Below, one piece after another: positions 6,289-63,194 of a DNA stretch of 64,000 nt (its first letter is position 1; every line of letters begins with the position of its first letter). This stretch comes from Geomonas sp. RF6 (lineage in GTDB: Bacteria > Desulfobacterota > Desulfuromonadia > Geobacterales > Geobacteraceae): contig NZ_CP087999.1 of NCBI RefSeq assembly GCF_021044625.1, positions 513,001 to 577,000 on the forward strand. The letters are read 5' to 3'. The position numbers and the translations under genes are program-made. The notes beneath the pieces were generated by a model, which had not been told where the DNA came from, did no database searches, and was given only the letters and a program-made list of their open reading frames with translations.

Positions 6289-8220
6289 GTGAGAAGGCGC
6301 ATCTCTTTCGGCTTCATTCTAATAACGCTGTTAAGCTCTGCTTATCAAGCGCGCGGAGAAGATCTACCGACGTCTCTCTCTCTGATTCTCTCTACTGGGG
6401 GTTACACTCTCAGTTCCCAGGACAATCTAAAAAGCGGCATCGGCTATGACATCCGGCTCGGATATGACATCATAGGCCGGGGCATCAGTGACAGTATCGG
6501 CATCGAAGGTGGTGTGTCGTACATCCCCACCAAATCCTCCAAAGACGATTCCACTGTCGACGCATTCCTTGTCAGAGGGGATGCGATCTACAGCTTTTTC
6601 CCCCGCAAGAGAATAGTCCCCTTTCTCAGCGTCGGCGGCGGCGCGCTCATCACCAGCGGCTCTGCGGATTCGACGACCACCCCCCTCTTCGCCTACGGCG
6701 CCGGGATGAAGTACTTCCTCAAGGAGTACCTGGCGCTGCGTCTGGACCTGCGCCACAACCTTCTCTACGATCAGGGGCTAAAGAGCGACTTCCAGTACAC
6801 CGCCGGGGTCAGCATGAGCCTCTTCCGCGACAAGAAGCTAAAGCGCCTCCCGGTGGTCGATTCCGACGGTGACGGTGTACCCGACGATACCGATCGCTGC
6901 CCGGCCACCCCGAAGGGGGTGAAGGTGGACAAGAACGGCTGTCCGTCCGATGCCGACGGCGACGGCGTTGCCGATTCCCTCGACAAGTGCCCGGACACTC
7001 CGAAAGGGGTGGCAGTCGACAAGAAGGGGTGCCCGCTCGAACAGCTCCCCCCCGTCCCCCCGGCGATTCAACAGGAGCGCGAGCGGCAAAGGGAGATCGA
7101 AGAGCAGAAGCGCCTCGAGAAGCAGAAGGAGCTCGAGGAACAGAAACGTCTCGAGAAGCAGCGCGAGCTCCAGGAGCTCACCCCTGCGCCGGAGCCGAAG
7201 CCCGAAGTGAAGCCGGAGCCGAAACCGGAGGTCGCGCCGGAAGGAAAGCCTCAGGCGAAGCCGGAAGGGACGCCGGCAACAAACGGCGCTCCTGCCAAGC
7301 CCGCAACAAACGGAGCACCTGTCCCCCCTGCAACGAACGGGGCCAAGGCCGCCCCGGCAACGAACGGTGCGCAGCCCCAGCCGAAGCAGGCGCAGAAGGC
7401 ACCGCAGACGGCGCCCCCGAAGAAGGAGCAGGAGCCGCGCGTCGCCGCCCCTGCAGTCCCGGCCGCACCTGCGGTCCCTGCTGTGCCTGCGGCTCCTGCG
7501 GCAACGGCGAAGCCGGTCGTCCCTTATCCCTCTTTCGTACAGGGCGCGCCGAGTTCAGCGAAGGTTCCGAGGCCGGCGCTCAGAAAGCCGCTGAGGCCCC
7601 CTGCAGCGCCCGTCGTGCCTGCGCCGCAGCCCGAGCCGGAGAAGCATTCGAAACTGCTGAAGGAAATGCGCCACGAATTGACGGTGCCGACCGAAAGCGA
7701 GCGTGCCAAGGAGCTCCTCGTCCAGGCTCCCGCTCCGCGGCCGCAGCCGGCGCCGCAGGTGAAATCGTCGGAAATCGCATCCGAGCCCACCCTCTCCACG
7801 CTGAAGAAGGCTCGGAAGGTGACGAGCCAGGACAAGTGCCCCGACACCCCCCTTGAAGAACTCGTCCAGAGGGAACATGCGGACATGACCGCTACGGTGC
7901 TTTTCAAGACCGATAGCGCCGAGGTTTCGCCGCGCTTCCTGCCGCGCTTGCAGGAAATCGCCGAATTCGCCCGCGCGCACCGCGACCTGCCGGTGTACAT
8001 CGAGGGGCATGCCGACAATCACGGGAGCCCCGGATACAACCTGCAGCTATCCCTGCGCAGGGTCAAGGCGATCAAGGAGATTCTGGTGAGCCGGTTCAAG
8101 CTCCAGGCGGCAAAGATGGTGCTGGTCGGCAAAGGGTGCACCATTCCTGTCGACGACAACAGAAAAGACAATGGCAGGGCGAAGAACAGGCGAGTCATCA
8201 TCGAGATGAAACAGCAGTAG
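6289..8220 (+). CDS. OmpA-family outer-membrane protein with TSP3 calcium repeats
   Basis: 643 residues. Signal peptide (RRRISFGFILITLLSSAYQARG), then a probable eight-stranded beta-barrel to about residue 188 with amphipathic strands such as YDIRLGYDI and PFLSVGGGALI. Two thrombospondin type-3 calcium motifs follow (DSDGDGVPDDTDRCP near 190, DADGDGVADSLDKCP near 222). A long charged and Pro/Ala/Lys linker with ATNGA repeats spans about 245-525. The OmpA C-terminal peptidoglycan-binding domain (FKTDSAEV, then NGRAKNRRV) ends the protein. The role should be to tie the outer membrane to the cell wall. I chose GTG 6289 because GGGGAG precedes it by four bases and it opens directly into the signal peptide. 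The linker is unusually long for the family and the ATNGA units are near-perfect repeats, a likely site of length variation. Confidence 0.9.
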   Translation: MRRRISFGFILITLLSSAYQARGEDLPTSLSLILSTGGYTLSSQDNLKSGIGYDIRLGYDIIGRGISDSIGIEGGVSYIPTKSSKDDSTVDAFLVRGDAIYSFFPRKRIVPFLSVGGGALITSGSADSTTTPLFAYGAGMKYFLKEYLALRLDLRHNLLYDQGLKSDFQYTAGVSMSLFRDKKLKRLPVVDSDGDGVPDDTDRCPATPKGVKVDKNGCPSDADGDGVADSLDKCPDTPKGVAVDKKGCPLEQLPPVPPAIQQERERQREIEEQKRLEKQKELEEQKRLEKQRELQELTPAPEPKPEVKPEPKPEVAPEGKPQAKPEGTPATNGAPAKPATNGAPVPPATNGAKAAPATNGAQPQPKQAQKAPQTAPPKKEQEPRVAAPAVPAAPAVPAVPAAPAATAKPVVPYPSFVQGAPSSAKVPRPALRKPLRPPAAPVVPAPQPEPEKHSKLLKEMRHELTVPTESERAKELLVQAPAPRPQPAPQVKSSEIASEPTLSTLKKARKVTSQDKCPDTPLEELVQREHADMTATVLFKTDSAEVSPRFLPRLQEIAEFARAHRDLPVYIEGHADNHGSPGYNLQLSLRRVKAIKEILVSRFKLQAAKMVLVGKGCTIPVDDNRKDNGRAKNRRVIIEMKQQ

Positions 8221-8280: not shown

Positions 8281-8381
8281 AAAGGTACGGAATAGGGTAA
8301 AACCGTACCTTGCCTCAGCCCAGACAGAGTCGTTCCATAGACAGCGCCGTGGGCTGCCAAATCTCTCTGAGGAGTCTGTAC
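8281..8381 (+). promoter_or_regulatory. structured leader of the two-domain NrfJ-like gene
   Basis: AAGGTACGG pairs with CCGTACCTT (8281-8311) and CAGCCCA with TGGGCTG farther on. CCTCAG within the leader could also pair with CTGAGG, which is part of the ribosome site before ATG 8382. Alternative pairings like these are compatible with translational control, but no known riboswitch was recognised. Confidence 0.35.
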
Positions 8382-9152
8382 ATGGAAAGAAAGAACACTT
8401 TGTTGACCGCAGGGCTGACGCTTGCAATCGCAGTCGGATCCCTTAGCGGATGCGCCACTGCCCCCACCAAGGCAGCAGCTCCCTCCCAGCCTGCTCCCGC
8501 AGCAAAGCAGGAGGCAAATGCACCGAAGCAGGCAGCGGCAAGCGCAGGGCCTGTGCTGGCCGGTAAGGTAGTCGAGACGATGGACGGCGGCGGGTATACC
8601 TACGTGCTGCTCGAGAAGGACGGGAAGCAGGGATGGTCCGCGATCCCGCAGACGAGTGTCAAGGTCGGCGACAACGTCGTCCTCATCCCCGGTATCGACA
8701 TGGGGAACTTCAGAAGCAACGCGCTGAAGCGCAACTTCGAGAACATCCACTTCTCCGCCGGCATTCAGGACGGCGCAGGCAAGGCAGAGGCAAAGCCGGC
8801 CGCACCGGCAGGCGCAGCAGCACCGGCTGAAGGCGCAGCAGCGCTCCCGCCGGGGCATCCGCCGCTTCCGAAAGGGAACGGGGCGAAGGCACCGGCACCG
8901 GCTGCCGCGGCACCTGCCGCAGCACCTGAGACGATCAGCGGGAAGGTCGTGGAAGCGATGAATGCCGGCGGCTACACCTACCTCAACCTGGAGAAAGGCG
9001 GGAAGAAGACCTGGGTGGCCATTCCGCAGGAAGATGTGGCAGTCGACTCCCAGGTGTCGGTGGAGTCCGGTTCGGTTATGCCCTCCTTCTCCAGCAAGAG
9101 CCTGAAGCGCACCTTCGAAAACATCATCTTCTCCCCGGGGCTTGTGAAGTAA
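8382..9152 (+). CDS. lipoprotein with two NrfJ-like domains
   Basis: 256 residues. A type II signal peptide ends in lipobox LSGC, so the mature protein is lipid-anchored. Two copies of a domain of about 70 residues follow (about 60-128 and 186-256), each with GKVVEtMnaGGYTYvxLEk, then W.AIPq, then a closing phrase lkRtFEnIxFS. They are joined by an Ala/Pro-rich linker. The pattern is that of NrfJ-related proteins, small periplasmic OB-fold-like proteins often found near multiheme cytochromes; the biochemical role is not established. I chose ATG 8382 because GAGGAG lies seven bases upstream. It is followed by a good terminator. A three-domain relative is encoded at 29410. Confidence 0.82.
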   Translation: MERKNTLLTAGLTLAIAVGSLSGCATAPTKAAAPSQPAPAAKQEANAPKQAAASAGPVLAGKVVETMDGGGYTYVLLEKDGKQGWSAIPQTSVKVGDNVVLIPGIDMGNFRSNALKRNFENIHFSAGIQDGAGKAEAKPAAPAGAAAPAEGAAALPPGHPPLPKGNGAKAPAPAAAAPAAAPETISGKVVEAMNAGGYTYLNLEKGGKKTWVAIPQEDVAVDSQVSVESGSVMPSFSSKSLKRTFENIIFSPGLVK

Positions 9153-9562: not shown

Positions 9563-10789
9563 TTAGTTCAGCACAGTTACCGGTCCGTCCTCTACGGTGA
9601 CGGTCGCTCCGGTGAGAGTTACGGAGGAGAGATCCACTACCTTCACATTGGAGACTACCATGGAGCTCGCCGGTACATTCGCCGTCTTCGGCACTTCGAG
9701 GTAGATCGTACCGAACTGGCCGTTGCCGAACTGCGTGGGGGCGTAGAGGCCAAGGGTGACGACCTCCGACTTCACGTACCCGAGGAGCGCCGCATCACTG
9801 CTGGATGCCAGCACGCCGCTCTTGAAGAGAGCCGCGCTGCTCAGGTCGCCGTTTGCCACGCCGAGCCCGGTCAGTGCTACGTCTGCCTGGAGACCGGCGA
9901 TGACGGCACCGGTGACGCCGGAGACATTGAGATAGTAGCTCACCAGCTTGTTGCTGGAGGAAACACCGGTCACCGGGGCGAGATTCGCCTTCGCCGCAGT
10001 GTCGGAAGCGAGAACGGTGCTCGTGTTCGGTCCTGCAAGAAGGTCGTTTACAGCGGTGACGAGATCAGCCTTCACGCCGTAGGAGGAGATGGTCGCGGCG
10101 GCCGAGCCGGAGCTCAGGGTGACGGCGCTGCTGAGCGTGGCAAGGGAGTTCTGCAGGTCTGCCGAAGTCGGAGTCGAAGTGGCGGCGTTCGCCACATACT
10201 GGGAAACGAGGGCAAGAACCTCTGTGTACTTCTGCTGCGCCGGAGTCGCGGCTTTCAGTGCAGTGGCTTCGAAGGCGACCGGTTTGGTGCTGATGATGTT
10301 GTCCACCTGGAAAACGCTCGCCACGTCAGTGTTCGCCGCGGCGATGGCGCCAACGGAGAGCTTGCCGTCGACGGTAGCCTTGCGTACCGCAAGATCGGTA
10401 AGGGGGGTGACCACAACGGTGGTCGCAGTGGCAGCAGACGGCACCGCTGCTTTCAGCGGAGCGTCGGCGGGGACCGTAACGGTCGCGTTGGTGGCCTCGT
10501 CGGTGTAGGTACCGAACGCCTCCACAAGGATCGCCCCGGTGTAGGGGGTGCCCAGGTCGGTGGAGTACACGCCGCCGGCCTTGACCGTGTCTTCCTTCAG
10601 GAGAGTCTTCGTGCCGTCCTGTGCGACGCCGTAGATCCGCACGGTGCTGCCGCTGGTGAATATGCCTTTGGACACGACGCCGCTGACCACGGTGTTTTCA
10701 ACCTTGGAACCGCCGCCACCACCGCAGGCACCGAGCATGCCGACCACGGCACCGAAAAGAAGTACCTGCAGCCCTTTCTTAAGAGTCAT
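9563..10789 (-). CDS. putative surface lipoprotein, low-complexity beta-rich
   Basis: 408 residues. The signal peptide LQVLLFGAVVGMLGAC ends in a lipobox with a glycine run after the cysteine. The N-terminal part looks like a carboxypeptidase-regulatory or Ig-like beta domain (VVSGVVSKGIFTSGSTVRIYG), followed by a long Ala/Thr/Ser-rich region with predicted helices (VTPLTDLAVRKATVDG, AQQKYTEVLALVSQY) and a beta-rich C-terminus. I do not recognise a catalytic family. The start is uncertain: ATG 10789 and an in-frame ATG at 10816 each have a GAGGTTA-type site eight to nine bases upstream; 10789 gives the more typical lipoprotein signal. It is the last gene of a probable operon with the cohesin/dockerin proteins and ends at a bidirectional terminator. 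Confidence 0.75.
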   Translation of the reverse strand: MTLKKGLQVLLFGAVVGMLGACGGGGGSKVENTVVSGVVSKGIFTSGSTVRIYGVAQDGTKTLLKEDTVKAGGVYSTDLGTPYTGAILVEAFGTYTDEATNATVTVPADAPLKAAVPSAATATTVVVTPLTDLAVRKATVDGKLSVGAIAAANTDVASVFQVDNIISTKPVAFEATALKAATPAQQKYTEVLALVSQYVANAATSTPTSADLQNSLATLSSAVTLSSGSAAATISSYGVKADLVTAVNDLLAGPNTSTVLASDTAAKANLAPVTGVSSSNKLVSYYLNVSGVTGAVIAGLQADVALTGLGVANGDLSSAALFKSGVLASSSDAALLGYVKSEVVTLGLYAPTQFGNGQFGTIYLEVPKTANVPASSMVVSNVKVVDLSSVTLTGATVTVEDGPVTVLN

Positions 10790-10879
10790 CTTTCTAACCT
10801 CGCTTGTTTGAGACATGGATCGTAACCTCGCTCGTTGATGTGGATACCCTATGCTACCTTCCAGTGACTACAGCGGCAG

Positions 10880-10927: not shown

Positions 10928-13900
10928 CTACTTGTAGTTACCTACCGCATAGTTCAGCAGCACGATGACATCGCTGATGTCGATGCTGCCGTCCGGTGCA
11001 GGCTTGCTGCCAACGTACGGTGCCAGGTCGAGTACGCTGTCCGCGTCGGTCTTGGTGTCGGCGCCGATGGTGATGCGAAGCGCCTTCAGGACGTCCTGGA
11101 TGGTGTACTTCTGGTAACGGATGTTGCGCGTCATGGAAGTGGTGTTGCCGGTAGCATCGGTGACCGTTGCGGTGACCGCATAGGCCTTCTCATCGGCAAA
11201 GGAGATCGTTTGCTTAAATATTCCGTCTGCGTCGAGTGCAAGTGCCGGGTTGACGGTCACGCCGTCGACCGCGAGCTTCACGCTGAACTCCACATTGCTG
11301 TAGGCGGAGTTGTCGAACTTGGCCAGACCCTGCACCTGGTAGTCCGCGAACCTGGTGACGATGTCCTTGGACGGATCGGTGATGGAAAGGGTCGGAGCCT
11401 TGTCGACGTACAGTACCGATCTCTTCACGGAAGAGGCGGTGTTCCCGGCGAGGTCGGTGGCATCGACCTGGATCGTGTTGAGACCGGCAAGGAGAGGACC
11501 GACGGAGAGAGTGAAGACGTTGCCGTTCATGGAGGCCGCATTGGCCGCGGCGCCGTTCAGGGAGACCTTTACTGTGCCTTCGGTCACCTCACCGGTAACG
11601 GTGACGAAAGTGACGTTGGTGATGGCACCTTCCGTCGGGGTGACCTTGTCGATGACCGGTGCCGTGGTGTCGAGGTTGATGGTACGGGCAACGGTCGTGC
11701 TGTTTCCAGCGACGTCAGTGGCAACGATAGTGATCGTGTTGGCCCCGGCGACCAGCGTCACAGAGGTGGTGAAGTTCCCGTTGGTTTCCGGGACGACCGG
11801 AGTGGCCTCGCCGCCGTTCAGGCTAATGGTGAGCGCGGAGAGGCCGCTCTCCGCGTCGGTGACGTTGCCGGAGATGTTCTGAACCGCATCAGCGGTGTAA
11901 GTATTGTTTTCCAGCATGGAGGGGAGCAGAACCGGTGCGGTGAGATCAACGACAACGGTTGCGCTGGAGAATGCGGAGACGTTTCCTGCCGCGTCCTTCA
12001 CCCAGGCGTACAGCGTCTTGGAGCCGGCTGCCGCAACGGTGTAGGAGGCCGGGGCTGTGGTGCTCCAGCCAGAGGTTGGTGCTGTTGCGCTCTCGGTGAT
12101 GAGGTAGCCGGCGACGCCGGAACCGGTGCTGTCGCTCGCCACGAAGGCCACCGGAATGGTCAGCGTCTTCACGAAGGAAGGAGCGGTGAAGGTGGTGACA
12201 GTCGGAGCGATCGTGTCGATGGAAACGGTTGCCGACTTGGAGGCGGAAACGTTACCCGCCGCGTCCTTCGCCCAGGCGTAGAGGGTGAAGTTCCCGTCCC
12301 CGCTCACGGTGAAGGTGGTCGGAGCAGTCGCGTTCCACCCGGTCGCGCCTGCCAGCGGAGCCACGTCGGACTCGGTGATCAGGTATCCGGTCACGCCGCC
12401 GAGGTCGGAGGCGGTGATGCTTACGTTGACGGTGCGGGTGGTGCTTGCTGCCGCGGTGAAGGCGGAGACCACCGGAGCGGTGCCGTCGGTGAAGGTAAGG
12501 GAGATAGTCCTGGCAACGGAGACGTTCCCCACCGCGTCCTTGGCCCACGCGTAGAGCGTCTTGGTGCCGAAGCCGCTGACGGTGAAGCTGGCGGGAACGG
12601 AAGCGCTCCACCCGGTGGCGGATGCTGCCGGAGCGGTGGAGGACTCGGTCACCAGGTACCCGGTGACGCCGATGTTGTCTGTGGCGGTGATGGCGATGCC
12701 GGTGGCGGTCAGGGTAACGGAGTCGGCCGTTGCGGTGAAGGCGGTGACGACCGGGAGCTCCGTGTCGGGCAGAGTGATGACGATGGTCGCGCTCTTCACT
12801 GCGGAGACGTTCCCTGCGGCGTCCTTCGCCCAGGCGTACAGGGTCTTGCTCCCCCCGGTGCTGACGGTGTAGCTGGCGGGCACGGTGCTGCTCCAGCCGG
12901 AGGCGGATGCAGAGGGCTTCGTGGAGCTCTCGGTGATCAGGTAACCGGTGACGCCGCCTGCGGCATCGTCGGTGGCGGTGAAGGAGGTCACGGCGACGGC
13001 GAGGGTGGTGCCGGTAGCCGGGATAGTGAAGGCGGACACGGTCGGGGCGGTGGTATCGACGATGTTCAAATTCACGCTTCTCGAGGTGGAGACGTTCCCG
13101 GCGGCATCCTTGGCCCAGGCGTACAGGGTCTTGGAACCGTAAGTGGTGAAGATATAGGAGGTGATGGAGGTTTTCCACCCGGCGTCGGTTGCGCTCGGAG
13201 CGGTGGCGCTCTCGGTGACGAGGTAGCCGGTTACGCCCTTGTTGTCGGTAGCAATGAGGCTGGTGATGGCAGCGGACATGGTGCTGGAGACCGCGGAGGC
13301 GTTGAAGGACGTCATGACCGGCACTTCGGTATCGGGGAGGTTGATGACAACCGCCGCGGTCTTGGCTGTCGAGACATGGCCGAGAGCATCTTTTGCCCAC
13401 GCGTAGAGCGTTGTAACGCCGATACCGCTGGCGGTGAAGCTAGTGGGTGCGGCTGTCGTCCAGCCGGAAGCGGTCGCCGACGGCGCGGTGGCGCTTTCGG
13501 TGATCAGGTAGCCGGTGACGCCGATGTTGTCGGTTGCGGTGAGTGCCGTGACGGGCACAACCAGCGTGGTGACCGGGCTCGTTACCGTGAAGGTCTGCAC
13601 CGCAGGCGCTGCGGTGTCGACAGTGGTGAGCCCCGACCTGCTGGCGAGATTGCCTGCCGCGTCCTTGACCCATAGATACAAGGTCTTAGCGCCGTCGCTC
13701 GTGAAGGAATAGCTCGTCGGAGCGGTCCCTGCCCAGCCGGTGTCCGTAAGGCTCGGGGTGGAGGTGGACTCGGTCAGGAGCCAGCCGGTTACGCCGACGT
13801 TGTCACTGGTGGTGGTGCTGACGGCGATGGTGCGGGTGTCGGATGTGCTGGGGATGACGAAGCCGCTGATGGTCGGAACCGTGGTGTCGGGAAGGGTGAT

Positions 13901-14350
13901 GGTACTCCCGGTACCGGAGATGGAGACATCGTTGCCATCCGGGTCTGAGGCGGAGGGTACGTTCAGGATGACGGGGGTGCCGGTAGCGGTGGAGGAGATG
14001 GCAAAGGTGACGTTGGCGACGACGCCGTCGCCGATCGAAGTGGTGTTGAGGGCGTACACCCCGACGACGTAGCGCGCGGAATTCACCTGGACCGGGTTCA
14101 CCGTCTTGCTGGCGGCGGTCCCGGCCGGGCCCAAGGTCGCGCCTGTCGGCGTCAACACCGCAGGGTCGTAGTCGAGCTGCACCTCGCACGCCCCGATGTT
14201 TGCTCCGTTCGTTGTGAGGGTCACCGGGATGGTGACCGATTGCCCCTGCACTCCGCTCACGTTCCCCAGACTGAGCGTGGGGCCCGCAGCGAAGGCGGAC
14301 GCTGCTGACAGCAGCAGCATGATGGCCACGAATAAACTCTTCAACCGCAT
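10928..14350 (-). CDS. exported cohesin-like, multi-Ig-repeat protein with dockerin-like tail
   Basis: 1140 residues. Signal peptide ends ASAFAA. Residues about 22-155 look like a cohesin domain (VQGQSVTIPVTLTTNG, CEVQLDYDPAVL, VANVTFAIS). About seven repeats of roughly 95 residues follow, each with D..aPtv..F, ATDNxGVTGYLiTES and TLYAWAKDAAGNVS, then three other Ig-like units. The last 60 residues (IQDVLKALRI, then DGSIDISDVIVLLNYAVG) resemble a dockerin. Cohesins and dockerins bind each other in cellulosomes, but the fold also occurs in other surface assemblies. ATG 14350 has AAGGAGG upstream. It sits between a dockerin-repeat gene (65-base gap) and a lipoprotein gene, so a surface scaffold is a reasonable inference. 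The repeats are similar at DNA level too, which may let copy number vary. Confidence 0.83.
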   Translation of the reverse strand: MRLKSLFVAIMLLLSAASAFAAGPTLSLGNVSGVQGQSVTIPVTLTTNGANIGACEVQLDYDPAVLTPTGATLGPAGTAASKTVNPVQVNSARYVVGVYALNTTSIGDGVVANVTFAISSTATGTPVILNVPSASDPDGNDVSISGTGSTITLPDTTVPTISGFVIPSTSDTRTIAVSTTTSDNVGVTGWLLTESTSTPSLTDTGWAGTAPTSYSFTSDGAKTLYLWVKDAAGNLASRSGLTTVDTAAPAVQTFTVTSPVTTLVVPVTALTATDNIGVTGYLITESATAPSATASGWTTAAPTSFTASGIGVTTLYAWAKDALGHVSTAKTAAVVINLPDTEVPVMTSFNASAVSSTMSAAITSLIATDNKGVTGYLVTESATAPSATDAGWKTSITSYIFTTYGSKTLYAWAKDAAGNVSTSRSVNLNIVDTTAPTVSAFTIPATGTTLAVAVTSFTATDDAAGGVTGYLITESSTKPSASASGWSSTVPASYTVSTGGSKTLYAWAKDAAGNVSAVKSATIVITLPDTELPVVTAFTATADSVTLTATGIAITATDNIGVTGYLVTESSTAPAASATGWSASVPASFTVSGFGTKTLYAWAKDAVGNVSVARTISLTFTDGTAPVVSAFTAAASTTRTVNVSITASDLGGVTGYLITESDVAPLAGATGWNATAPTTFTVSGDGNFTLYAWAKDAAGNVSASKSATVSIDTIAPTVTTFTAPSFVKTLTIPVAFVASDSTGSGVAGYLITESATAPTSGWSTTAPASYTVAAAGSKTLYAWVKDAAGNVSAFSSATVVVDLTAPVLLPSMLENNTYTADAVQNISGNVTDAESGLSALTISLNGGEATPVVPETNGNFTTSVTLVAGANTITIVATDVAGNSTTVARTINLDTTAPVIDKVTPTEGAITNVTFVTVTGEVTEGTVKVSLNGAAANAASMNGNVFTLSVGPLLAGLNTIQVDATDLAGNTASSVKRSVLYVDKAPTLSITDPSKDIVTRFADYQVQGLAKFDNSAYSNVEFSVKLAVDGVTVNPALALDADGIFKQTISFADEKAYAVTATVTDATGNTTSMTRNIRYQKYTIQDVLKALRITIGADTKTDADSVLDLAPYVGSKPAPDGSIDISDVIVLLNYAVGNYK

Positions 14351-14415
14351 ACTTCCTCCTTACAAAGATTTTCAGATACTGAAACTGAACCGTCAGCCGA
14401 GATGCGGCTATTACT

Positions 14416-17172
14416 TCAAGGCGTGAGATACGCGCTGATTACCTTCTGCAGTTCGGAGATGCTCACCTTGCTGTCCCCGCTGATGTCGACGCATACGGTC
14501 GTGGCTTTCGCCATGAGGTACATGCTGATTGCCGACTGGAGCTCCGAGATGGAGACCTTGCCGTCGAAGTTGCAGTCGCCCGCCTTTCCGGAGACTACGA
14601 CGTTGCGGATGGCGGTAGTTTCCATGCCGGACGCGTCCTTCGCGGTGACAACGACACGGTTCACACCTGCGACGACCGGGATGACCTGGCTGAAGCTCCC
14701 CGCGGTCACCGCAGGGGTGTAGGTCGTAGTTCCGGCGCTGATGGTTACCGTTGTATCGGAAGTTGTCGAGACTGTGCCGGAAATGGTGACAGAGTTGGAC
14801 GGGTTCGTGCTGTCCTCAACCGGTGCGGTGATCTGCAGCTCCGGGCCGCCCGAGAGGAGAGTCACGGAGCGCTTCACGCTGGTCGTGTTGTTGGAGGCGT
14901 CGGTGGCGACCACCACGAGGGTGTTCATCCCGGAGGCAAGGCTCACGTCGGTAGTGAAGGTGCCGCCGGTCACGGTGGCGGTCTGCGACGTCCCGTTCAC
15001 GATCACCTGGACAGTGCTGCCGCTGGCGACGGTGCCGGTCACGGTGACGGTAGTGGCGCCGGTAGCCGCGTTGTCAGCAGGTGCGGTAACCGTCAGGGCG
15101 GGGGCCGATGCATTGTAGGTTATCGTCCTCGTGATGGTGCTCTGCAGCCCGCTGCTGTCGGCAAGGAGGGTGACGGTGTTGGAGCCGGCGGTCAGGCGAA
15201 GCGCGTAGTCGAAGAAGCCGTCGCTCCCGACGGTAACGGCGGTCCCGTTGATCTTCAGCGTGGCGGTGCTGTAGGGGACGGTGACGAAGCCGGTCAGGTT
15301 CAGGATGCCGTTCTTGCTGACGGAGCTCGTCGGCAGCGCGGAGAGGGCGATCGTCGGCGGCGTCGTGTCGATCACCACGCTCTTCGATACCGACGTGGTG
15401 AGCCCGTTGTAACCCTTCGCCCAGGCGTACAGCGTCTTCGTCCCGGCGGAGGTGAAGGTATAGGCGGCAGGGGGTGCGCTGTTCCAGGTGGTCGGGGCAG
15501 AGCTCGTCTCGGTAAGGGCATAGACGACGCCGTTAGGCTCCGTCGCGGCGATGGTGACGGAAACGGTCAGGCTCTTAGAGGCGGTCGGCACCGTAAAGGT
15601 GGTGATGGCCGGCTTGCCGCTGGAAAGGACCGCGTTGATGTTGGTGATGGTGCCGGTGGCGTCGAGAGCGATTGCATCCGCCTCGGCCAGCGTCGCCTTC
15701 TTGTTGTAATACTGCTTCCCGTACTTTCCTACGGAGTCGAACTGGACGCGGTAGTTGCCGGAAGCAACGCCGCCGATCTTGTAGGTACCGTCGGACGCGG
15801 TCTTCACCCCGCTGTAGCCGGAGGGGAACATGCCACTTGCGTCGTAGAGCCAGACCCAGATGTCGGGGATCCCGTTGCCGCTTCCGTCGGTGACGGTCCC
15901 GGTCAGGGTGATTTTGTTAAGCACCGTGTCGTCCAGGGGATTTGGGAAGCCACCCGAGACATTGAAGTAGTTCCCCCCCGCGTACCACTGGTCGATGTAC
16001 CCTGCGGCGCCGCTGAAGAGGATCTTGTAGTTGCCGGCCGGAACGATCGGGAAGGTGAAGGAGCCGTCCGATGTGGAGTATACGGGCGCCACGTTGGACA
16101 CGGGGGTGCCGGTCGTGGTGTAGAGGGTCGCCTTCACACCGGAGAACGCTCCGCTGGTGTTCAACACTTTACCGGTCACGGTCCCCCAGTCACCGATGAC
16201 GGCGTTCACGTTCTGGGTGATGACACCGCTTGCGATGGTGAGAAGGTTTGCCTCGGCGGAGAGGAGCTTGTTGTTGTAGAAGACGCGGAATGCGGGGGGC
16301 TTGCTGAAGGCGATCTTGTAGCTGCCGGCGGCGAGACCGCCGTAGAGGTAGCTGCCGTCGGCACCGGTGGTGGCGACGTTTTGCTGCACATTGCCGAGGG
16401 TGTCGTAGACGTAGACCGAGGCACCTTCCACAGCGGCACCGTTCACGTCCGTCACCTTCCCGGAGAAGTTGACCCCCAGCATGAAGGAGGAGCCGCGCGT
16501 CTCGGCGGAGTTCTTGTTGCTGTCCAGCGCAAAGACGGACCAGTCGTACTGCACCCCCGGGGTGAGGGTAGCACCGGTGCCTGCGGTGCCGTCGAAGTTG
16601 AACGTCTTGGCGGTGCTGGTGTAGGCGAAGGTGTTCGATTTCCAGGCCATGTCCATCCCGGTGACGGAAAGCGCGTACCAGGAAGGCGTAGTCGAAGGAG
16701 CGGTCCAGCTGAAGATGGGGCTGGAGGTGCCGACGATCGCCCCGCTTGGCGAGCCCTGCACCGCGAAGGAGTCGACAACGCCGCTGACGGTGAGGGGCAG
16801 TTCCTCGCTCGGGACGGCCGGATCGAGGTAGGCGATGTACACAGTGTAGGCATCCCCCACAGTGGGGCGGCCGGTAAGATCGAGGGTGCCGACGAAGTTG
16901 ACGAGGCTGTCATCTAGGTCAAGGGAGGCCGGACCGCTGAGCCCGGGGCCGTCGATGGCGACCGACTTGATGAGCGCAGTGGAGTCGGGGACGACGACGC
17001 TGATGGAGTACCCTTCGGTGCTACCCTTTTTCCAGTGGTTGGTGGTAAGGGTGCCGGTAGCGGCTTCGGCGGACGAAAAAGCTGCGCAGACCGCGGCAAC
17101 CACCAGGAGTGTGGCAAATGCCACATTGTGAGCGATTTTTTTCAGGACGGGAAACCAGAGATACTTCCGCAT
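14416..17172 (-). CDS. exported protein with carboxypeptidase-regulatory-like repeats and a dockerin-type C-terminus
   Basis: 918 residues. The signal peptide ends SSAEAA. After a beta-rich N-terminal region come at least three units of the type FSGKVTDVNGAAVEGASVYV, then GSYLYGGLAAGSYKIAF, the carboxypeptidase regulatory-like (transthyretin-type) fold. A TLYAWAKGYNG repeat related to those of the next gene follows, then Ig-like units. The C-terminus has two calcium-loop helices, DCNFDGKVSISELQSAI and DISGDSKVSISELQKVI, a duplicated dockerin motif. The partner cohesin could be the N-terminal domain of the downstream protein (65-base gap). I chose ATG 17172 because GGAGG stands five to six bases upstream; an in-frame start at 17229 has none. 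A sigma-70-type promoter at 17544-17572 would give a leader of about 365 bases. Confidence 0.85.
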   Translation of the reverse strand: MRKYLWFPVLKKIAHNVAFATLLVVAAVCAAFSSAEAATGTLTTNHWKKGSTEGYSISVVVPDSTALIKSVAIDGPGLSGPASLDLDDSLVNFVGTLDLTGRPTVGDAYTVYIAYLDPAVPSEELPLTVSGVVDSFAVQGSPSGAIVGTSSPIFSWTAPSTTPSWYALSVTGMDMAWKSNTFAYTSTAKTFNFDGTAGTGATLTPGVQYDWSVFALDSNKNSAETRGSSFMLGVNFSGKVTDVNGAAVEGASVYVYDTLGNVQQNVATTGADGSYLYGGLAAGSYKIAFSKPPAFRVFYNNKLLSAEANLLTIASGVITQNVNAVIGDWGTVTGKVLNTSGAFSGVKATLYTTTGTPVSNVAPVYSTSDGSFTFPIVPAGNYKILFSGAAGYIDQWYAGGNYFNVSGGFPNPLDDTVLNKITLTGTVTDGSGNGIPDIWVWLYDASGMFPSGYSGVKTASDGTYKIGGVASGNYRVQFDSVGKYGKQYYNKKATLAEADAIALDATGTITNINAVLSSGKPAITTFTVPTASKSLTVSVTIAATEPNGVVYALTETSSAPTTWNSAPPAAYTFTSAGTKTLYAWAKGYNGLTTSVSKSVVIDTTPPTIALSALPTSSVSKNGILNLTGFVTVPYSTATLKINGTAVTVGSDGFFDYALRLTAGSNTVTLLADSSGLQSTITRTITYNASAPALTVTAPADNAATGATTVTVTGTVASGSTVQVIVNGTSQTATVTGGTFTTDVSLASGMNTLVVVATDASNNTTSVKRSVTLLSGGPELQITAPVEDSTNPSNSVTISGTVSTTSDTTVTISAGTTTYTPAVTAGSFSQVIPVVAGVNRVVVTAKDASGMETTAIRNVVVSGKAGDCNFDGKVSISELQSAISMYLMAKATTVCVDISGDSKVSISELQKVISAYLTP

Positions 17173-18184
17173 TACGCCTCCTTTATAGTGCACGTGCGAG
17201 CCGCGGCCACGGCGACACAATGCAGCCATGACACAACAAGAGGCAGCAGTCGCACCTCTAGACCAGCAGCAGTTGCATTACAACGTGACAGTAGTCGCCA
17301 CTTCCAACTGACAGGACAGTAACAACTTCAACTTCGTTAGATTTTGTTTGAGAAAAGCGCATCATAATGCTGCGCAGTAATGGATACTTATGGGAGGAAG
17401 GACGTGCTTATTGCATATCAAATTCCCCTCCAGACATTTACATAAGAATGCTTGTCATGCCAAAAAAGACTTCATGCAGTACCTGAAATTGTTACTGCCA
17501 GATTCATAAAAAAAGGCGCAACACAGCGTAAAACAAGGGCTTTAAAATACAGCCGGGCACCTTCTTTGTCAAGCTGACTTTTCCTCCGAAAAAAGAAAAA
17601 CGCGGCCAATTTTCAGTCATAGAATTAGCTACATTTAATACAATTCCTGTACTGTCACACCTTTTTTCAGCACACACAGAGTGTTTGCGAATTGTGACAG
17701 TGATGCCTGTGCCAAGGCATCAGGATAGACCAAGACCGAAGCGAGGCCGCGTTTTAAATCAGCATGGAAGGAGAGAGATGCGGCAGAAGCTTCCATGCAG
17801 AGCATGACAGTGCAAAAAATGAGAGATAGCAGCAAATTACATGAAAGGAGAACGGCAGTGAAAGAGAAATGCATTACATTGAAGGAGGTAGGATTCACTC
17901 GATGCGCCCTCGGTCGATGGACCGTCTGCACTTCAGCTGCCGGTGATGGAAGCTTGTAACGGTGAACGCCCATCAAAGAGCAAGTTGCACGCCAAAGGGT
18001 GTAGATGCGGCAGCACCATCTTTTTTTCTGCGACAAAAAAGGGGGACTGCCCTCCGGCAAAAGACGGTACGGCCGGAGATGCCGCGAGCCTCACGGCGCG
18101 AGGGAGAGGAGTGAAGCCGCGCACGGCGCGGCCCCGCGGAGAGAGAGGTGCAACGAAGGGGGAAAATCGAGGTGCAGGCGGAGG
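17173..18184. other. structured intergenic region
   Basis: No gene here convinces me. It contains the likely promoter and long leader of the dockerin operon, three copies of GTGACAGT (17285-17292; 17651-17658 inverted; 17694-17701), a hairpin TGATGCC/GGCATCA (17701-17722), a 9-bp inverted repeat GCATGGAAG/CTTCCATGC (17762-17798), and several GC-rich hairpins between 18040 and 18150, for example CTCCGGC/GCCGGAG. A 33-codon frame from GTG 17858 has a good GGAG site but resembles nothing I know. A non-coding RNA is possible. Confidence 0.5.
17544..17572 (-). promoter_or_regulatory. sigma-70-type promoter for the dockerin/cohesin operon
   Basis: On the minus strand there is a perfect TTGACA, a 17-base spacer and TATTTT. 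It is the best promoter match upstream of 17172 and implies a leader of about 365 bases. Confidence 0.55.
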
Positions 18185-18529
18185 TTATTCCTCCTCCCCC
18201 CCGCCCCCACCCCGGGCCGCCTCCCGTGCTCTGCGCCGGGCTTCCTTCCGGGCGGAGACGGGGCGCGACGGCGCGGTTTCTCCGTTATTTGACTGAACGG
18301 AGACCTCGGCATCCCGTCCTTTAGCGGCATCGTCCACGACAGGTTCCGGCACGGGGGTGGAATCGACCACCACAGGAGCCGCCGCAGGAGGAGAAGCTTT
18401 CGCAGTGGACGATTCACCAGAGTACTCGACGATGATGACATCATCGGTCTCTTCTATGGTTCCCTGTCCTGCGGAAACGACAGAAGCGGAGAGAAGAAGG
18501 ATGGCTAGAAGTGGCAGTAAGAGACGCAT
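18185..18529 (-). CDS. small exported protein, TIEE family (paralog 1)
   Basis: 114 residues. A signal peptide (MRLLLPLLAILLLSASVVSAG) is followed by GTIEETDDVIIVEYSGE, a Pro/Ala/Val linker and a strongly basic tail (KEARRRAREAARGG) ending in acidic residues. The phrase TIEETD..I.VEY.G is shared with the protein at 19062, and both end in an Arg-rich helix, so the two genes are paralogs. I do not recognise the family. A short beta-hairpin plus basic tail could bind an anionic surface polymer or a heme protein, but this is speculation. I chose ATG 18529 because GGGGG precedes it by five bases; an in-frame GTG at 18535 would leave no spacing. It lies downstream of cytochrome unit A. Confidence 0.7.
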   Translation of the reverse strand: MRLLLPLLAILLLSASVVSAGQGTIEETDDVIIVEYSGESSTAKASPPAAAPVVVDSTPVPEPVVDDAAKGRDAEVSVQSNNGETAPSRPVSARKEARRRAREAARGGGGGEEE

Positions 18530-19061
18530 GGGCACCCCCAGTAGGTCGAAATGGCCATACCATTAACATCCTGATGAGGCGAATGCAACAGTGAAAGCAC
18601 GGAGGCGGGTGCGGCAATAGGAGCGGAGAGGGTTTTGTGGGTTTAAGCAGGGAACCTGCAGTGCAGTTTCACAAAGCGCTGGAGGAGACCTCGCGTCCGC
18701 ACCTTTGCGAAGGCTTATCCTAGATGCGGGGGGAGCTTGGGTACATTGCCACAAGCACTGCAGAAGCCCTAACGTTCCCCCCTTTGCGAAGGGGGGGCAG
18801 GGGGGATTTGATCTTCAAGTCTCCTCCAGAACCGCAGCCCGTCTAAATAGTACATCTCGGAACCGCAGTGCTACGGCAGCTAAAGATCAACGACATAGGC
18901 CCCACCTCTTTTTTAGAAATTGCTTGAGACCCACAGCAGTTGCGCGCTTTGCAGGACGGTGCCGGCCAAGGCAAATCCCCCCTGTCCCCCCTTCGCAAAG
19001 GGGGGGACGTAAGAGGGAGCTATTCGGAACTATTCGGATTTACTCGGAGCTACTCGCGGAA
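18530..19061. other. intergenic region holding a CCCCCCTTTGCGAAGG element (copy A)
   Basis: Apart from the repeat element at 18738-19008 I see no gene, promoter or RNA with support. A short degenerate run of GGA[AG]CTA[TC]TC-type repeats (about 19018-19070) enters the end of the 19062 gene. Confidence 0.5.
18738..19008. repeat. dispersed palindromic element, copy A
   Basis: The left arm TGGGTACATTGCCACAAG, then CACTGCAGAAGCCCTAACG, then TTCCCCCCTTTGCGAAGGGG, then GGGGGATTT; the right arm is the inverted AAATCCCCCCTGTCCCCCCT, then TCGCAAAGGGGGG. The interior shares CGCAGTGCT.CGGCAGC-type stretches with copy B at 30409. It looks like a MITE-like or REP-like non-coding unit. Confidence 0.75.
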
Positions 19062-19394
19062 CTACTCGGCGTTTGAACTCGCCTGGGTCCTGCGCCGGGC
19101 GCGCTCCAACCTTTCCTGGCGCCTGGCGGCACGCCGCGCCTCCTCGTCGGATTGTCCCGACACGACCTCGCTGCGCCTCTCCTCGCTCGGCGTCGCTGCG
19201 GAGACGACGCCCGGGGCCGGGGCGAGGGCGCTCGCGGTAAGGTCCCTCCCCTTCAGGATCGGGGCGTTGTCGCTGGCGTCACCGTAGTATTCAACCACAA
19301 TGGCGGTGTCCGTTTCCTCGATGGTGCCGTGCCCCGCATGTGCCACCTGCACGGTGGCCAGAACCAGAAGACATCCTGCGACTGCTTTTCTCAT
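19062..19394 (-). CDS. small exported protein, TIEE family (paralog 2)
   Basis: 110 residues. Signal peptide MRKAVAGCLLVLATVQVAHA, then GHGTIEETDTAIVVEYYGD, a linker with ILKGRDLTASALAPAPG, and a highly basic C-terminal helix (EEARRAARRQERLERARRR). It is clearly related to the protein at 18185. ATG 19394 has GAGGAG upstream. It follows the unit A cytochrome after a strong terminator, so it is probably transcribed on its own. The last codons run into a degenerate repeat. No known family recognised; the basic tail suggests contact with nucleic acid, lipid A or an acidic protein. Function unknown. Confidence 0.75.
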   Translation of the reverse strand: MRKAVAGCLLVLATVQVAHAGHGTIEETDTAIVVEYYGDASDNAPILKGRDLTASALAPAPGVVSAATPSEERRSEVVSGQSDEEARRAARRQERLERARRRTQASSNAE

Positions 19395-19512: not shown

Positions 19513-22359
19513 CTACGGACGCTCCGGCTTCCCAAGGGAGGTGTTCCACTTGCCGGTGGTGCGATCCCAGGCGTTGATGAAGAGCATACCCTCGGAGGTG
19601 TTGGTCATGATGGTGCCGAGGGTGGACTTGGTGCCGTTGTCCAGGGTGTATGCTGCGGTGTCGGCGGTGAACTTGCCGGTGACGTCGACCACGGTGCCGC
19701 TGACGGAGCCGGTGGCGGAGGTTGCAGTCTTGGCGTTGGTCACGACCGAGCTGTTGATCACACCATCGTCAAGGAAGTCGATGCTGTCGTACACCAGGCG
19801 GCGGGTGTAGGAGCGAGCATGAACGTACGCTGCGGGCTCGCGGCTCAGCAGGTTGAGGTTGAATGCTGCGCCTTCCAGCTTCAGTGCTGCCGGTGCGTCG
19901 AGTGCGCCACCGCGGGTCCAGTCGGTCACAGCCTGCATTGCGCCGTTCTTCTTCGGCAGGTTCTCGTCGTAGAAGTACGGGTACGCGTCGGGGTTGTAGG
20001 AGATCTTGTAGTTCTTCAGCAGGAAGTACTTGGCAAGATCAAGGCTGTCGATGAATGCCTCTTTGTTCGGGTCGAGGAAGGCGGCTGCGAAGTTGCTACC
20101 GTCGGCAGCGATTGCCACCGGACCGTTGTGGCTGCCTTCGGAGGTGTGGCAGTTGATGCACACGGTCTTGTATGCGTCGCCGTTTGCGTCTTCGCCGATG
20201 AGGAGGCTGTGCCCTTTGGCTGCGTTGCGGTTGTAGCCCATGTGGCAGGCTACGCAGGGACCGCCCGCGGTGAGCGGGGAGGTAGCGGTGATGCCGTGGT
20301 CATTCACGATGGACATGGTGCCGAGCTTGCGGTGCGTGGAGGTCACGCCGCCGGCGATGCCGTCCGGGGTGGATGCGTTGTCGGCAGTCAGGGACTTGCC
20401 GTAGGTGCTGGTGCCGAATGCTGCGCTTGCCGAGGTGAAGGCGGTGAAGCCGGCTTTGACGTACATGACGCCTGCTGCTGCCATGTAGTGGGAGTTCTGG
20501 AAGCTGCTGTTGTTCATGCTGAGGCCGTTTGCCTGAGCGGTTACCAGTGCGGAACCGGAGAGGCGTGCGGAGTGGCAGGAAACGCAGAGGTTGGAGTCGC
20601 CCACATCCGGGAACTTAGCGGTGATGCGTGCCTTCACGGTCTTGCTGGTGACCTTGTCGACGGTGCTGATGTTGTAGAAGGTCTGGACGCCGACGCTTCT
20701 GCTGTAGCTGGTCTGGTTGGCGAAAACAACCGGGGTGATTGCTGCGGTGCGGCGGATGCCGGTGGTGCTGCCGTTGACTGCGGTCGGGTCGGTGGTGTGG
20801 CACCCTGCGCAGGTCAGCGGGGAGTTGAAGAGGGCGCTGTCCGTGCCGTCAACCCTGTTGGCGTTGCTGAAGTTGGAGCCGAAGAACTGTGCGAAGCCTG
20901 CTGCGGTGTGGCAACGTACGCAGTCGGTGCTCGGGATGTTTTTCTGGAAGTCGCCGGCAACCCCGGAACCTCTCCAGTCGTGCCCTTTTGCGCCAACGGT
21001 CGGAGTCCATGCCAGACCGTTTCTCTTGCCGTGGTCGGACTCGGCCCAAGCGGAGAGGATGTCGCTGTTGGTGGTGAAGGTCTCGACGTTTGCTGCGCCG
21101 ATGCCGTGCGGATCAAGGTTGAAGTGGCAGTTGTTGCAGGCGTTCACGCCCTGACCTTTCGGGCCGACGTAGGCGGCGGAGATGTTCTTGAAGGTCGCGG
21201 TGGAGATGTTGGAGAAGTGGGTTACGCCGTCAAACTGCTTGGAGTAGTTGCCGTTGTGGCAGCCAAGGCAAGCCTTGCCCGCTTCCGGGAGGGTGTTGAC
21301 GTGCATGGTGGTGCCCGGAACGTGGCAGGAAGAGCAGAGCGGGCCGTGGCTGTTGTTGGCGTGGCCGGAAACCTTGTACTCTTCCACCAGTGCATTGTTC
21401 CTGTTGTTGTGGCAGGAAACGCACACGCTGGAGCCGTAGACGCCCGGGGCGTACACGGTGATTGCCGGGGTCTGGACGGTGGAGGATGCAGTTCCGTTGG
21501 AGGCGGTCACTTTCACCACGTAGGAACCTGCAGCGGTGGCCTTGAACTTCGCCTTGTTGCCGGAGTACTGGCGGAAGGTCACGTTCGCGAGGGGGTCGAG
21601 GGTGTAGGTGACGCTGGAGCCGTTTGCGGTGGTCTTGGAGAAGTCGAGGGTAACTTCGGACCCGACGGCGGTTGCCACGGTGCTGGCAAGTACGCGAGCC
21701 TGGACTGCGTCAACCAGTGCGAAGCTGGCAGTCACTTCCTGACCTGTAGCGACAACATCGGCAAACTTAATCTGCCCTGCCAGACCGGTCTTGCTGGCGC
21801 CGGCGATGGTGCTGACAGTGTAGTCCGCGTTGGGAGCAGCGAAAACGCGGATGGTAGAGCCCGGCTTGATGCTGCTAAGCCCGGTGCGGCTGAAGGGGCC
21901 GTAGGGAACGCCGTTAGCCATGCGCTGAACGTAGACGCTGCCGCCCCCTGCAACCGGCTGCTTCACGGAGATGCTGGTGGTCGCAGCGGTGTAGTACACC
22001 ACCATCGTGTGGTTCTTGCCGTTGTTGTTGATGGTGTAGTCGCCGGCTGCGTTACCTTTGTTGACGCCGTCGATGACAACGGAGGACACCACATAAGAGC
22101 CCGGTGTCGGCGCAACGGTGAGGGTCTGGGAAGCAACTGCATTGGAAACGAGGTTGCCGTTAACGTCGTAGACGTCGTCGGCTACCTTGAAGTATGCAGT
22201 CTTGGCAGCTTCCGTCGCTGCCTTTGCGACAGAGGCATTGTCGCTTGTTCTGGTGATTGTCCCTGCCCCGCTGCCGATCTTTGCCGTCACAGTCCATGCA
22301 CTGGCGAAGGTGGGTAGTGAGAGCATGAGGGCGAATGCAAACCCTGCTTTTCTCAACAT
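19513..22359 (-). CDS. secreted 9-heme c-type cytochrome (unit A)
   Basis: 948 residues. The signal peptide (MLRKAGFAFALMLSLPTFASA) leads into a beta-rich N-terminal half with an AWTVTAKIGSGAGTITRTS segment and Ig/PKD-like units. Nine CxxCH sites follow: CVSCH, CSSCH, CLGCH, CNNCH, CVRCH, CAGCH, CVSCH, CVACH and CINCH. The last seven make a module that recurs in the unit B and C proteins, with landmarks HFSNISTA, CVRCHTAAGF and FPDVGDSNLCVSCHSAR. After the hemes is a non-heme C-terminal region with TDWTRGG, REPAAYVHARSYTRRL and YDSIDFLDDG. It should be an extracellular or periplasmic electron carrier. ATG 22359 has AAAGGAGAA upstream; the in-frame start at 22395 does not. It lies 70 bases after the tetraheme gene, forming an operon with it. 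Confidence 0.93.
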   Translation of the reverse strand: MLRKAGFAFALMLSLPTFASAWTVTAKIGSGAGTITRTSDNASVAKAATEAAKTAYFKVADDVYDVNGNLVSNAVASQTLTVAPTPGSYVVSSVVIDGVNKGNAAGDYTINNNGKNHTMVVYYTAATTSISVKQPVAGGGSVYVQRMANGVPYGPFSRTGLSSIKPGSTIRVFAAPNADYTVSTIAGASKTGLAGQIKFADVVATGQEVTASFALVDAVQARVLASTVATAVGSEVTLDFSKTTANGSSVTYTLDPLANVTFRQYSGNKAKFKATAAGSYVVKVTASNGTASSTVQTPAITVYAPGVYGSSVCVSCHNNRNNALVEEYKVSGHANNSHGPLCSSCHVPGTTMHVNTLPEAGKACLGCHNGNYSKQFDGVTHFSNISTATFKNISAAYVGPKGQGVNACNNCHFNLDPHGIGAANVETFTTNSDILSAWAESDHGKRNGLAWTPTVGAKGHDWRGSGVAGDFQKNIPSTDCVRCHTAAGFAQFFGSNFSNANRVDGTDSALFNSPLTCAGCHTTDPTAVNGSTTGIRRTAAITPVVFANQTSYSRSVGVQTFYNISTVDKVTSKTVKARITAKFPDVGDSNLCVSCHSARLSGSALVTAQANGLSMNNSSFQNSHYMAAAGVMYVKAGFTAFTSASAAFGTSTYGKSLTADNASTPDGIAGGVTSTHRKLGTMSIVNDHGITATSPLTAGGPCVACHMGYNRNAAKGHSLLIGEDANGDAYKTVCINCHTSEGSHNGPVAIAADGSNFAAAFLDPNKEAFIDSLDLAKYFLLKNYKISYNPDAYPYFYDENLPKKNGAMQAVTDWTRGGALDAPAALKLEGAAFNLNLLSREPAAYVHARSYTRRLVYDSIDFLDDGVINSSVVTNAKTATSATGSVSGTVVDVTGKFTADTAAYTLDNGTKSTLGTIMTNTSEGMLFINAWDRTTGKWNTSLGKPERP

Positions 22360-22429
22360 GAAGAATTCTCCTTTGTAAAGTTTAAGTCGATTCAAGATCC
22401 GCTACTTTCTCACATCGAGCCGGACCGGC

Positions 22430-54035: not shown

Positions 54036-54119
54036 GTATATTCTCCTTTTAGAAGTATTTTCATTGCTCATCGAGGTAACCTCGTCCTTCTGAGGGTTAC
54101 CCCTCACTCACCGGCCGTC

Positions 54120-63108: not shown

Positions 63109-63194
63109 GTATATTCTCCTTTTTTGTAAGTTTTCATTGCATTCCGCCTCCTGTAATCACCGCTTACAAGATGCGAATGATACAGGCTCCACCA

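Follow-up and report, generated by a model that had tools for sequence, protein, structure and literature searches.

A predicted cohesin-dockerin chain of three envelope proteins encoded beside cytochrome genes in Geomonas sp. RF6

The cellulosome of the Clostridium thermocellum type is a chain of an anchoring scaffoldin, a scaffoldin and dockerin-bearing enzymes. Cohesin and dockerin modules of non-cellulosomal nature are reportedly the subject of Peer et al. 2009. Passages of two more papers propose that cohesin/dockerin adhesins of anaerobic methanotrophic (ANME) archaea and their partner sulfate-reducing bacteria (SRB) serve attachment, and mention ANME proteins with one dockerin and several cohesins (PMC9012536, PMC10553843). 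Here we describe a related arrangement in Geomonas sp. RF6, within a stretch of 64,000 nucleotides (positions 513,001 to 577,000 of contig NZ_CP087999.1, "the window" from here on) of a genome of 5.26 Mb in one contig. Three neighbouring genes, named after their positions in the window, concern us: 14416 encodes a large protein with a dockerin-like end (the head), 10928 a protein with an N-terminal cohesin and a dockerin-like end of another type (the adaptor), and 9563 a lipoprotein (the anchor). The two tail types are called S-type (head) and K-type (adaptor). A sequence-only reading of the window, made without database searches, had dealt with the head and adaptor pair; the anchor, encoded by the next gene, is a third partner.

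We estimate a probability of about 0.65 that these proteins form an envelope chain held together by two separate cohesin-dockerin classes. The lipoprotein would sit in a membrane by its lipid, its location being a prediction, and hold out a divergent cohesin into which the K-type tail of the adaptor would plug, as suggested by how the two genes neighbour each other, occur together and co-vary, and by a single AlphaFold2 model made for a relative. The N-terminal cohesin of the adaptor would receive the S-type tail of the head, which neighbourhood and co-occurrence suggest for this genome. The head would thus be tethered to the envelope via plugs in place of a covalent anchor of its own. Judging from their loops the plugs are probably calcium-dependent, and the lipoproteins are predicted to lie on the cell surface.

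Modules of the adaptor, the head and the lipoprotein

The sequence-only reading had the adaptor start with a cohesin-like domain, and a hidden Markov model search agrees: residues 25-147 match PF00963 (Cohesin) of Pfam with E=4.2e-14 and 53.4 bits against a cut-off of 24.1. The best sequence match of this domain in the PDB is the cellulosomal cohesin 1g1k (E=1.5e-5). The adaptor carries one cohesin and a relative at locus L095 carries two. As had been claimed, the pair lacks glycoside hydrolase and cellulose-binding domains, since Pfam finds no glycoside hydrolase or carbohydrate-binding module (CBM) family in either protein; the same holds for the remaining K-tail proteins of this genome, five in number, among which L021 has a laminin-G/ConA-like lectin domain and L018 a chitobiase C-terminal domain. 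PF09136, "Glucodextranase, domain B", we take to be an Ig-like, non-catalytic domain. The repeats of the adaptor align to positions 701-889 of "exoglucanase CbhB" in NCBIfam at 50.5 bits against a cut-off of 1950, which is taken as a sign of shared repeats. A cellulosome was considered and rejected, given the absence of these families from the pair and the single cohesin of the adaptor in place of several. Two other proteins of this genome (L017 7010-8533, 507 amino acids; L025 8634-10031, 465 amino acids) have an N-terminal part that is weakly cohesin-like by an iterated home-made profile, the former scoring 23.4 bits to PF00963, below the cut-off, and both show by eye an EF/dockerin-like stretch near the C-terminus.

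The end of the adaptor belongs to the K-tail family; six proteins of this genome carry such a tail, at their C-terminus or close to it. PF00404 was the best match in all eight family members tested and was over its cut-off in six, the eight having been picked for an intact first loop. The dockerin fold of the family rests on the model of a relative, L167, not on the window's own tail (2ccl_B, root-mean-square deviation 1.5 over 62 residues, Z 9.7, template modelling score 0.83 by target). The dockerin-like end that had been read in the adaptor is thus upheld by family membership and not by a match of its own: its first calcium loop has decayed and PF00404 gives no match at E<=0.1.

For the head, the ATG at 17172, the position given in the sequence-only reading, is a better start than 17229 and gives a signal peptide. 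Two EF-type loops of 12 residues each, DCNFDGKVSISE and DISGDSKVSISE, can be read directly in its last 56 amino acids, and in an AlphaFold2 model of the orthologue at locus L090 helices 24-34 and 54-65 follow the loops. The earlier description of two calcium-loop helices therefore stands, and their assignment to the dockerin type falls short of the Pfam threshold: PF00404 (Dockerin_1) scores 14.0, 16.6 or 20.6 bits depending on the stretch given, against a cut-off of 22.9. EF-hand models match the S-tail below their cut-offs as well. The S-tail profile has one match in this genome, the head, which is a seed; in the PDB it finds mostly EF-hand proteins (best E=5.5e-4), with dockerins further down at E=0.27 and 0.37. 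Among the best 50 structure rows for the L090 model no dockerin was found for the S-tail, the list being filled by the L090 cohesin.

Tails related to that of the head vary among relatives. By eye, loci L086, L087 and L092 show yet another dockerin-like tail, of a third type, in which a loop carries a long insertion. The head protein bears it in L086 and L087, and all three loci have it on an additional cohesin protein of 246-257 amino acids; PF00404 is over its cut-off (24.9 bits) in the additional protein of L086, the one tested. Loci L100, L101, L102 and L103 have a variant S-type tail on a large protein that is followed by a small cohesin protein, and in L100, L101 and L103 this pair is flanked by genes that look flagellar by eye. 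In the uncultured Geobacteraceae LJ_bin-4045 (G112) the S-tail profile matches 37 times, in part on fragments, and PF00963 nine times, a large non-cellulosomal dockerin repertoire.

At E<=1 the anchor matches no family of Pfam or NCBIfam. Pfam run on nine lipoprotein domains of its family gave neither a PF00963 match nor a shared family, and PF00963 is also absent in L137, the one member that a home-made cohesin profile reaches (9e-4). The fold of the domain was modelled on L167, not on 9563 (AlphaFold2, mean predicted local distance difference test score 89.2). In this model the 14 best Foldseek rows for residues 121-249 are cohesins (2xdh, E=2.1e-4), and VIA aligns the domain to cohesins with Z up to 10.8 over 112-113 residues; for residues 1-75 dockerins lead in both. 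Weaker rows without relation to either module begin at E=3.9e-3. By its modelled fold the lipoprotein family domain is a cohesin. Profile comparison supports this weakly, with P=6.2e-5 over 97 columns and a probability of 65% against cohesins (P=8.6e-5 and 32% for a nine-sequence profile) and P of 0.0052-0.24 over 7-21 columns for the controls. The sole PDB matches of the lipoprotein profile were malate dehydrogenases (best E=0.0015 over 49 positions), which we take as chance.

A profile of the nine domains finds the lipoprotein domain in 80 of 147 relative genomes, the set that all our co-occurrence counts cover, often in several copies. We examined 74 open reading frames (ORFs) of this family from the matches listed, namely those in 60 fetched regions and at loci already in the set; 58 of the regions were taken down the ranking of profile matches with known loci skipped, and the other two (G084, G118) were picked for a neighbouring large ORF already noticed. 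A simple lipobox pattern fits 68 of the 74. Of the remaining six, one is cut off and five have, by eye, a cysteine behind a signal-like stretch.

Pairing of the two tail types with the two cohesin types

A K-tail ORF adjoins 60 of the 74 lipoprotein-cohesin ORFs with a median gap of 38 nucleotides (nt); without G084 and G118 the count is 58 of 72, and without the nine profile seeds 51 of 65. The K-tail gene lies upstream of the lipoprotein in 55 of the 60 pairs and downstream in five, and the tail is the very C-terminus of its protein in 57 and lies at most 5 amino acids from the end in the other three. A lipoprotein, glycine-rich behind its cysteine, also comes next after 11 of the 12 adaptor-type ORFs (cohesin plus K-tail), the exception being L094. 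Across the relative genomes 80 have both K-tail and lipoprotein, none has the lipoprotein alone, 21 have the K-tail alone and 46 have neither. The distances of K-tails and lipoprotein cohesins co-vary (r=0.51 over 60 pairs from 38 genomes), above shuffles within genomes, which move just 13 multi-pair genomes and give r of 0.35 +/- 0.04 with 0 of 2000 reaching 0.51. One of the row sets leaves out the truncated L139 row and two L166 rows already inside the L166 read-through row; another leaves out L137, L101 (near-identical to L100), L017, L025 and S matches shorter than 46 amino acids or not C-terminal.

The two genes at L167 (relative G041) are in frame, and the single-chain read-through of both was modelled in AlphaFold2 from 116 rows, 23 of them paired. 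The predicted template modelling score (pTM) was 0.82, with a low-confidence linker between the domains; the rough ceiling for this chain is ~0.50 with the cohesin alone placed and ~0.78 with both domains placed. The model is in line with docking of the K-tail with the lipoprotein cohesin. Among 395 further genomes of the phylum, five match the lipoprotein domain at E<=1e-6, of which one lies outside the order; K-tails occur in 11, and four of these lie outside. Two of the four, G447 and G515, which belong to other families, have 13 and 11 K-tails and no lipoprotein cohesin match at E<=1e-6.

The S-type tail goes with cohesins of the adaptor's own, PF00963-matching type (window-type cohesins). 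The S-tail profile matches 20 of the relative genomes and the window-type cohesin is in 18, a count that leaves out matches on the C-terminal end of the query alone (from about position 79), a fragment in G023 and a match with stop codons in G140. Seventeen genomes have both, one the cohesin alone, three the S-tail alone (G095, G114 and G121, of which G095 and G114 rest on fragments) and 126 neither. At 20 of 21 loci we found 27 window-type cohesin ORFs, and in 18 of these an S-type tail ORF lies upstream on the same strand with a gap of -244 to 823 nt. Among the 18 are three (L086, L087, L092) whose variant tail is matched in part, the near-identical L100 and L101, and L088 (gap 823 nt), where another cohesin gene lies between the cohesin ORF and the S-type tail ORF; at L102 and L092 the sequence stops at a contig end. 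The other nine ORFs comprise six with an S-type tail in the same protein, two with one on the opposite strand and one with none.

Head and adaptor genes are 65 nt apart in the window and neighbours in relatives too. In Geomonas sp. Red32 (G046), which is counted neither among the S-tail genomes nor among those with a window-type cohesin, a 919-residue protein (L097) joins a head of the 14416 type (37% identity over 445 amino acids) to an end of the 10928 type with a K-tail (36% over 467 amino acids, a stretch that is partly Ig-like repeats common to both window proteins). Beside it a lipoprotein of 156 amino acids is barely more than lipobox and cohesin. The natural reading is that the adaptor would be an optional extension piece between head and anchor. 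Taken together, adjacency in the window, neighbourhood in relatives and the Red32 fusion bear out the earlier claim that a non-cellulosomal cohesin-dockerin pair belongs together here.

The gene block and its cytochromes

The three genes close a minus-strand run that begins with 22430 (a tetrahaem cytochrome) and 19513 (a large multihaem cytochrome) and continues through two small proteins to 14416, 10928 and 9563 (Table 1).

Table 1. Features of the cohesin-dockerin gene block, in window coordinates
Feature	Coordinates	Strand	Description and basis
Head protein	14416..17229	-	937 amino acids from 17229; N-terminal domain, CarboxypepD/SdrD-B-like and Ig-like repeats, S-type dockerin-like tail; relatives in L086-L091, L097
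S-tail of head (paired EF-hand / dockerin-like module)	14419..14586	-	Seed of S-tail profile
Adaptor protein	10928..14350	-	1140 amino acids; signal peptide, cohesin, Ig-like repeats, K-type dockerin-like tail
Cohesin domain of adaptor (PF00963)	13910..14278	-	Residues 25-147; Pfam E=4.2e-14
K-tail of adaptor	10931..11107	-	Residues 1082-1140; first calcium loop degenerate; K-tail family membership
Anchor lipoprotein	9563..10816	-	417 amino acids; lipobox LGAC, then GGGGG
Cohesin-fold domain of lipoprotein (predicted)	9587..9958	-	Residues 287-410; fold from family member L167; Pfam blind to domain
Small protein, same gene run	18185..18535	-	Signal-peptide-like start; relative in L089
Small protein	19062..19394	-	Resembles 18185 by eye; ORF reading
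Large multihaem cytochrome	19513..22359	-	9 CXXCH; relatives in L086, L087, L088, L091, L097
Tetrahaem cytochrome, OmcE nanowire subunit homologue (PDB 7tfs)	22430..23209	-	E=2.8e-16
Trihaem cytochrome of block	5115..5771	-	Haem motifs, relatives compared
OmpA-type beta-barrel / peptidoglycan-binding protein of block	6226..8220	+	Pfam, relatives compared
Lipoprotein-like gene of block	8310..9152	+	Weak Slp match below cut-off; relatives compared

Conservation of the block was compared over 12 relative loci, L086-L097. The trihaem gene and the OmpA gene are each kept in L086, L087, L088, L089 and L097, the Slp-like gene in these five and in L090 and L091, and an OmcE-like tetrahaem gene is found among the relative loci at L090. 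The cytochromes that had been pointed out beside the pair thus stay with it in part of the relatives, not in all. The tetrahaem protein 22430 has four CXXCH motifs and matches the OmcE filament subunit over residues 9-259, which makes it an OmcE homologue. The head gene stands beside the OmpA, trihaem and large multihaem genes, an arrangement that some of the relatives share, and the head may on this ground help to organise the extracellular electron-transfer surface. The cohesin-dockerin proteins may have a matrix or electron-transfer role.

The unit of a large multihaem cytochrome and an OmcE-like tetrahaem is present in three copies on the minus strand of the window (19513-23209, 50247-54899 and 58111-63992). 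The large cytochromes have 9, 15 and 20 haem motifs; the tetrahaems are 77-84% identical and each matches 7tfs.

Alternative readings and known systems

Several observations weigh against the three-protein chain. The adaptor's own K-tail is too degenerate for PF00404. No K-tail adjoins 14 of the 74 lipoprotein ORFs, one of them among the three of this genome: three are cut upstream by a contig end, L165 lies beside an ORF running off its contig, L173 has an S-tail neighbour and nine, including this genome's third copy, have no tail neighbour. Four of the six K-tail proteins of this genome likewise have no adjoining lipoprotein, nor has the adaptor L094. All profiles were seeded from genomes that were searched afterwards, and the S-tail seeds came from loci fetched via cohesin matches. 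Co-variation and adjacency would also be expected of a gene pair inherited as one unit. As to the docked K pair, AlphaFold2 may favour any dockerin-cohesin contact. For the S-tail and cohesin of the L090 cluster AlphaFold2 gave no confident docking: from 41 rows, 3 of them paired, both domains of the L090 orthologues were folded with a pTM of 0.58, between hand-computed ceilings of ~0.51 undocked and ~0.72 docked. While not a matched control, this modelling result indicates that AlphaFold2 does not confidently dock every dockerin-cohesin fusion. As to the surroundings, the stretches fetched for L092-L096 contain no cytochrome or OmpA neighbours. A general link between cassettes and cytochromes was looked for and not shown in 779.5 kb at 59 cassette loci, where 25 ORFs have at least three haem motifs; the multihaem density of 3.2 per 100 kb is a figure without background.

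Some of these points would suit a reading in which the tails, like the cohesin-like domains, act as adhesive modules or as caps that lend stability, with no specific binding, their genes standing together as surface-protein operons. The S-tail model without confident docking and the 14 lipoproteins without a K-tail neighbour speak for it, and yet the same two domain types are paired again and again in many genomes with the tail at the extreme C-terminus, co-variation exceeds that of within-genome shuffles and the K pair reaches a pTM of 0.82, so that we hold this reading to be unlikely. The sequence-only reading had proposed that the pair could build a self-assembling surface fibre or matrix. 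In such a fibre the adaptor's cohesin would bind the tail of the next adaptor, head to tail, and 14416 would cap or decorate the polymer. One cohesin and one dockerin-like tail do stand in a single polypeptide, in 10928 as in 12 ORFs, a 233-residue protein at L093 is barely more than cohesin and K-tail, and K-tails are present in 17 of the 18 window-type cohesin genomes. The K-tail is nevertheless independent of that cohesin, because 84 of the 101 K-tail genomes (and 65 of the 80 lipoprotein genomes) lack it; its habitual neighbour is the lipoprotein cohesin, and the window-type cohesin co-occurs with the rarer S-tail. Because the two modules of the adaptor go with different partner classes and the head has a tail and no cohesin, a chain ending at a lipid anchor is preferred to an open polymer, and the fibre is kept as an improbable rival.

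A further possibility is that the tails are mainly export addresses, caught by the C-terminal cohesin of the secretin of a type II-like system, with the lipoprotein cohesins receiving the tailed proteins later. This genome does encode a secretin that ends in a PF00963 cohesin (L017 13854-16445, about 341.9-344.4 kb); its operon is that of a type II-like secretion system and on our reading has FtsE/FtsX-like neighbours. PF00963 occurs in 124 of the relatives, among the matches listed mostly in ORFs of about 800-900 amino acids, the Secretin domain having been checked on the protein of this genome alone. Cell-division genes are reported near the Pul system that secretes OmpB (PMC3543383), and that system and the L017 operon may be the same. 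PF00963 is however commoner than either tail (124 genomes against 101 and 20) and nothing we found ties tail loss to export, leaving this explanation very doubtful. A wider scheme would have dockerin tails as a general address system in Geobacterales, with a cohesin-bearing secretin aiding the export of giant tailed proteins, lipoprotein cohesins receiving these outside and, in this block, the chain positioning OmcE-type wires or partner cytochromes on the cell; we regard it as quite improbable.

If the three-protein chain is correct, cohesin-dockerin plugs would serve Gram-negative relatives of metal reducers as a routine means of anchoring proteins to the surface, and a cohesin family missed by Pfam in the members tested would leave an annotation gap across the order. 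Cognate plug-and-socket pairs would be on offer, and perhaps a way into the question of how cells keep hold of their extracellular cytochrome surfaces. An iron-reducer metatranscriptome that includes Geobacter has dockerin annotations, taken there as a sign of cellulose degradation (PMC6199725), which would then have another reading. In the literature searched, which left most subscription papers outside its scope, we found no paper on a cohesin lipoprotein in Geobacteraceae, and as far as these searches tell a two-class chain of this kind, recurring as a cassette with lipoprotein cohesins, has not been described.

The closest described systems each share part of this arrangement. Like the cellulosome, it would stack two cohesin-dockerin classes in a chain ending at the cell surface, from modules homologous by sequence (adaptor) and by fold (lipoprotein family); unlike it, there is no glycoside hydrolase or CBM family, one adaptor cohesin in place of many, a lipid anchor and not an SLH or sortase one, and a Gram-negative host. 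The Archaeoglobus fulgidus cohesin 2xdh, which leads the Foldseek rows for the lipoprotein-cohesin model, and the C. perfringens cohesin-like 2jh2 are likewise modules outside cellulose degradation, whereas here they form a recurrent two-gene cassette with a lipoprotein cohesin missed by Pfam, the domain being spread over more than half of the relatives (80/147). Like the adhesins of ANME archaea and their SRB partners, the proteins combine cohesin and dockerin in organisms credited with extracellular electron transfer; the passages on those other organisms mention no lipoprotein anchor or two-class chain, and the SRB paper reports expression where the cassette here is known from its genes. 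With the OmcE-type cytochrome nanowires of Geobacter (PDB 7tfs; PMC12954529) the sole link is the OmcE homologue 22430 in the same gene block, since the cohesin-dockerin proteins are not cytochromes. The modules are known ones, and on the best reading the recurring cassette with its lipoprotein cohesins and its predicted chain of two classes would be a non-cellulosomal variant of cohesin-dockerin scaffolding.

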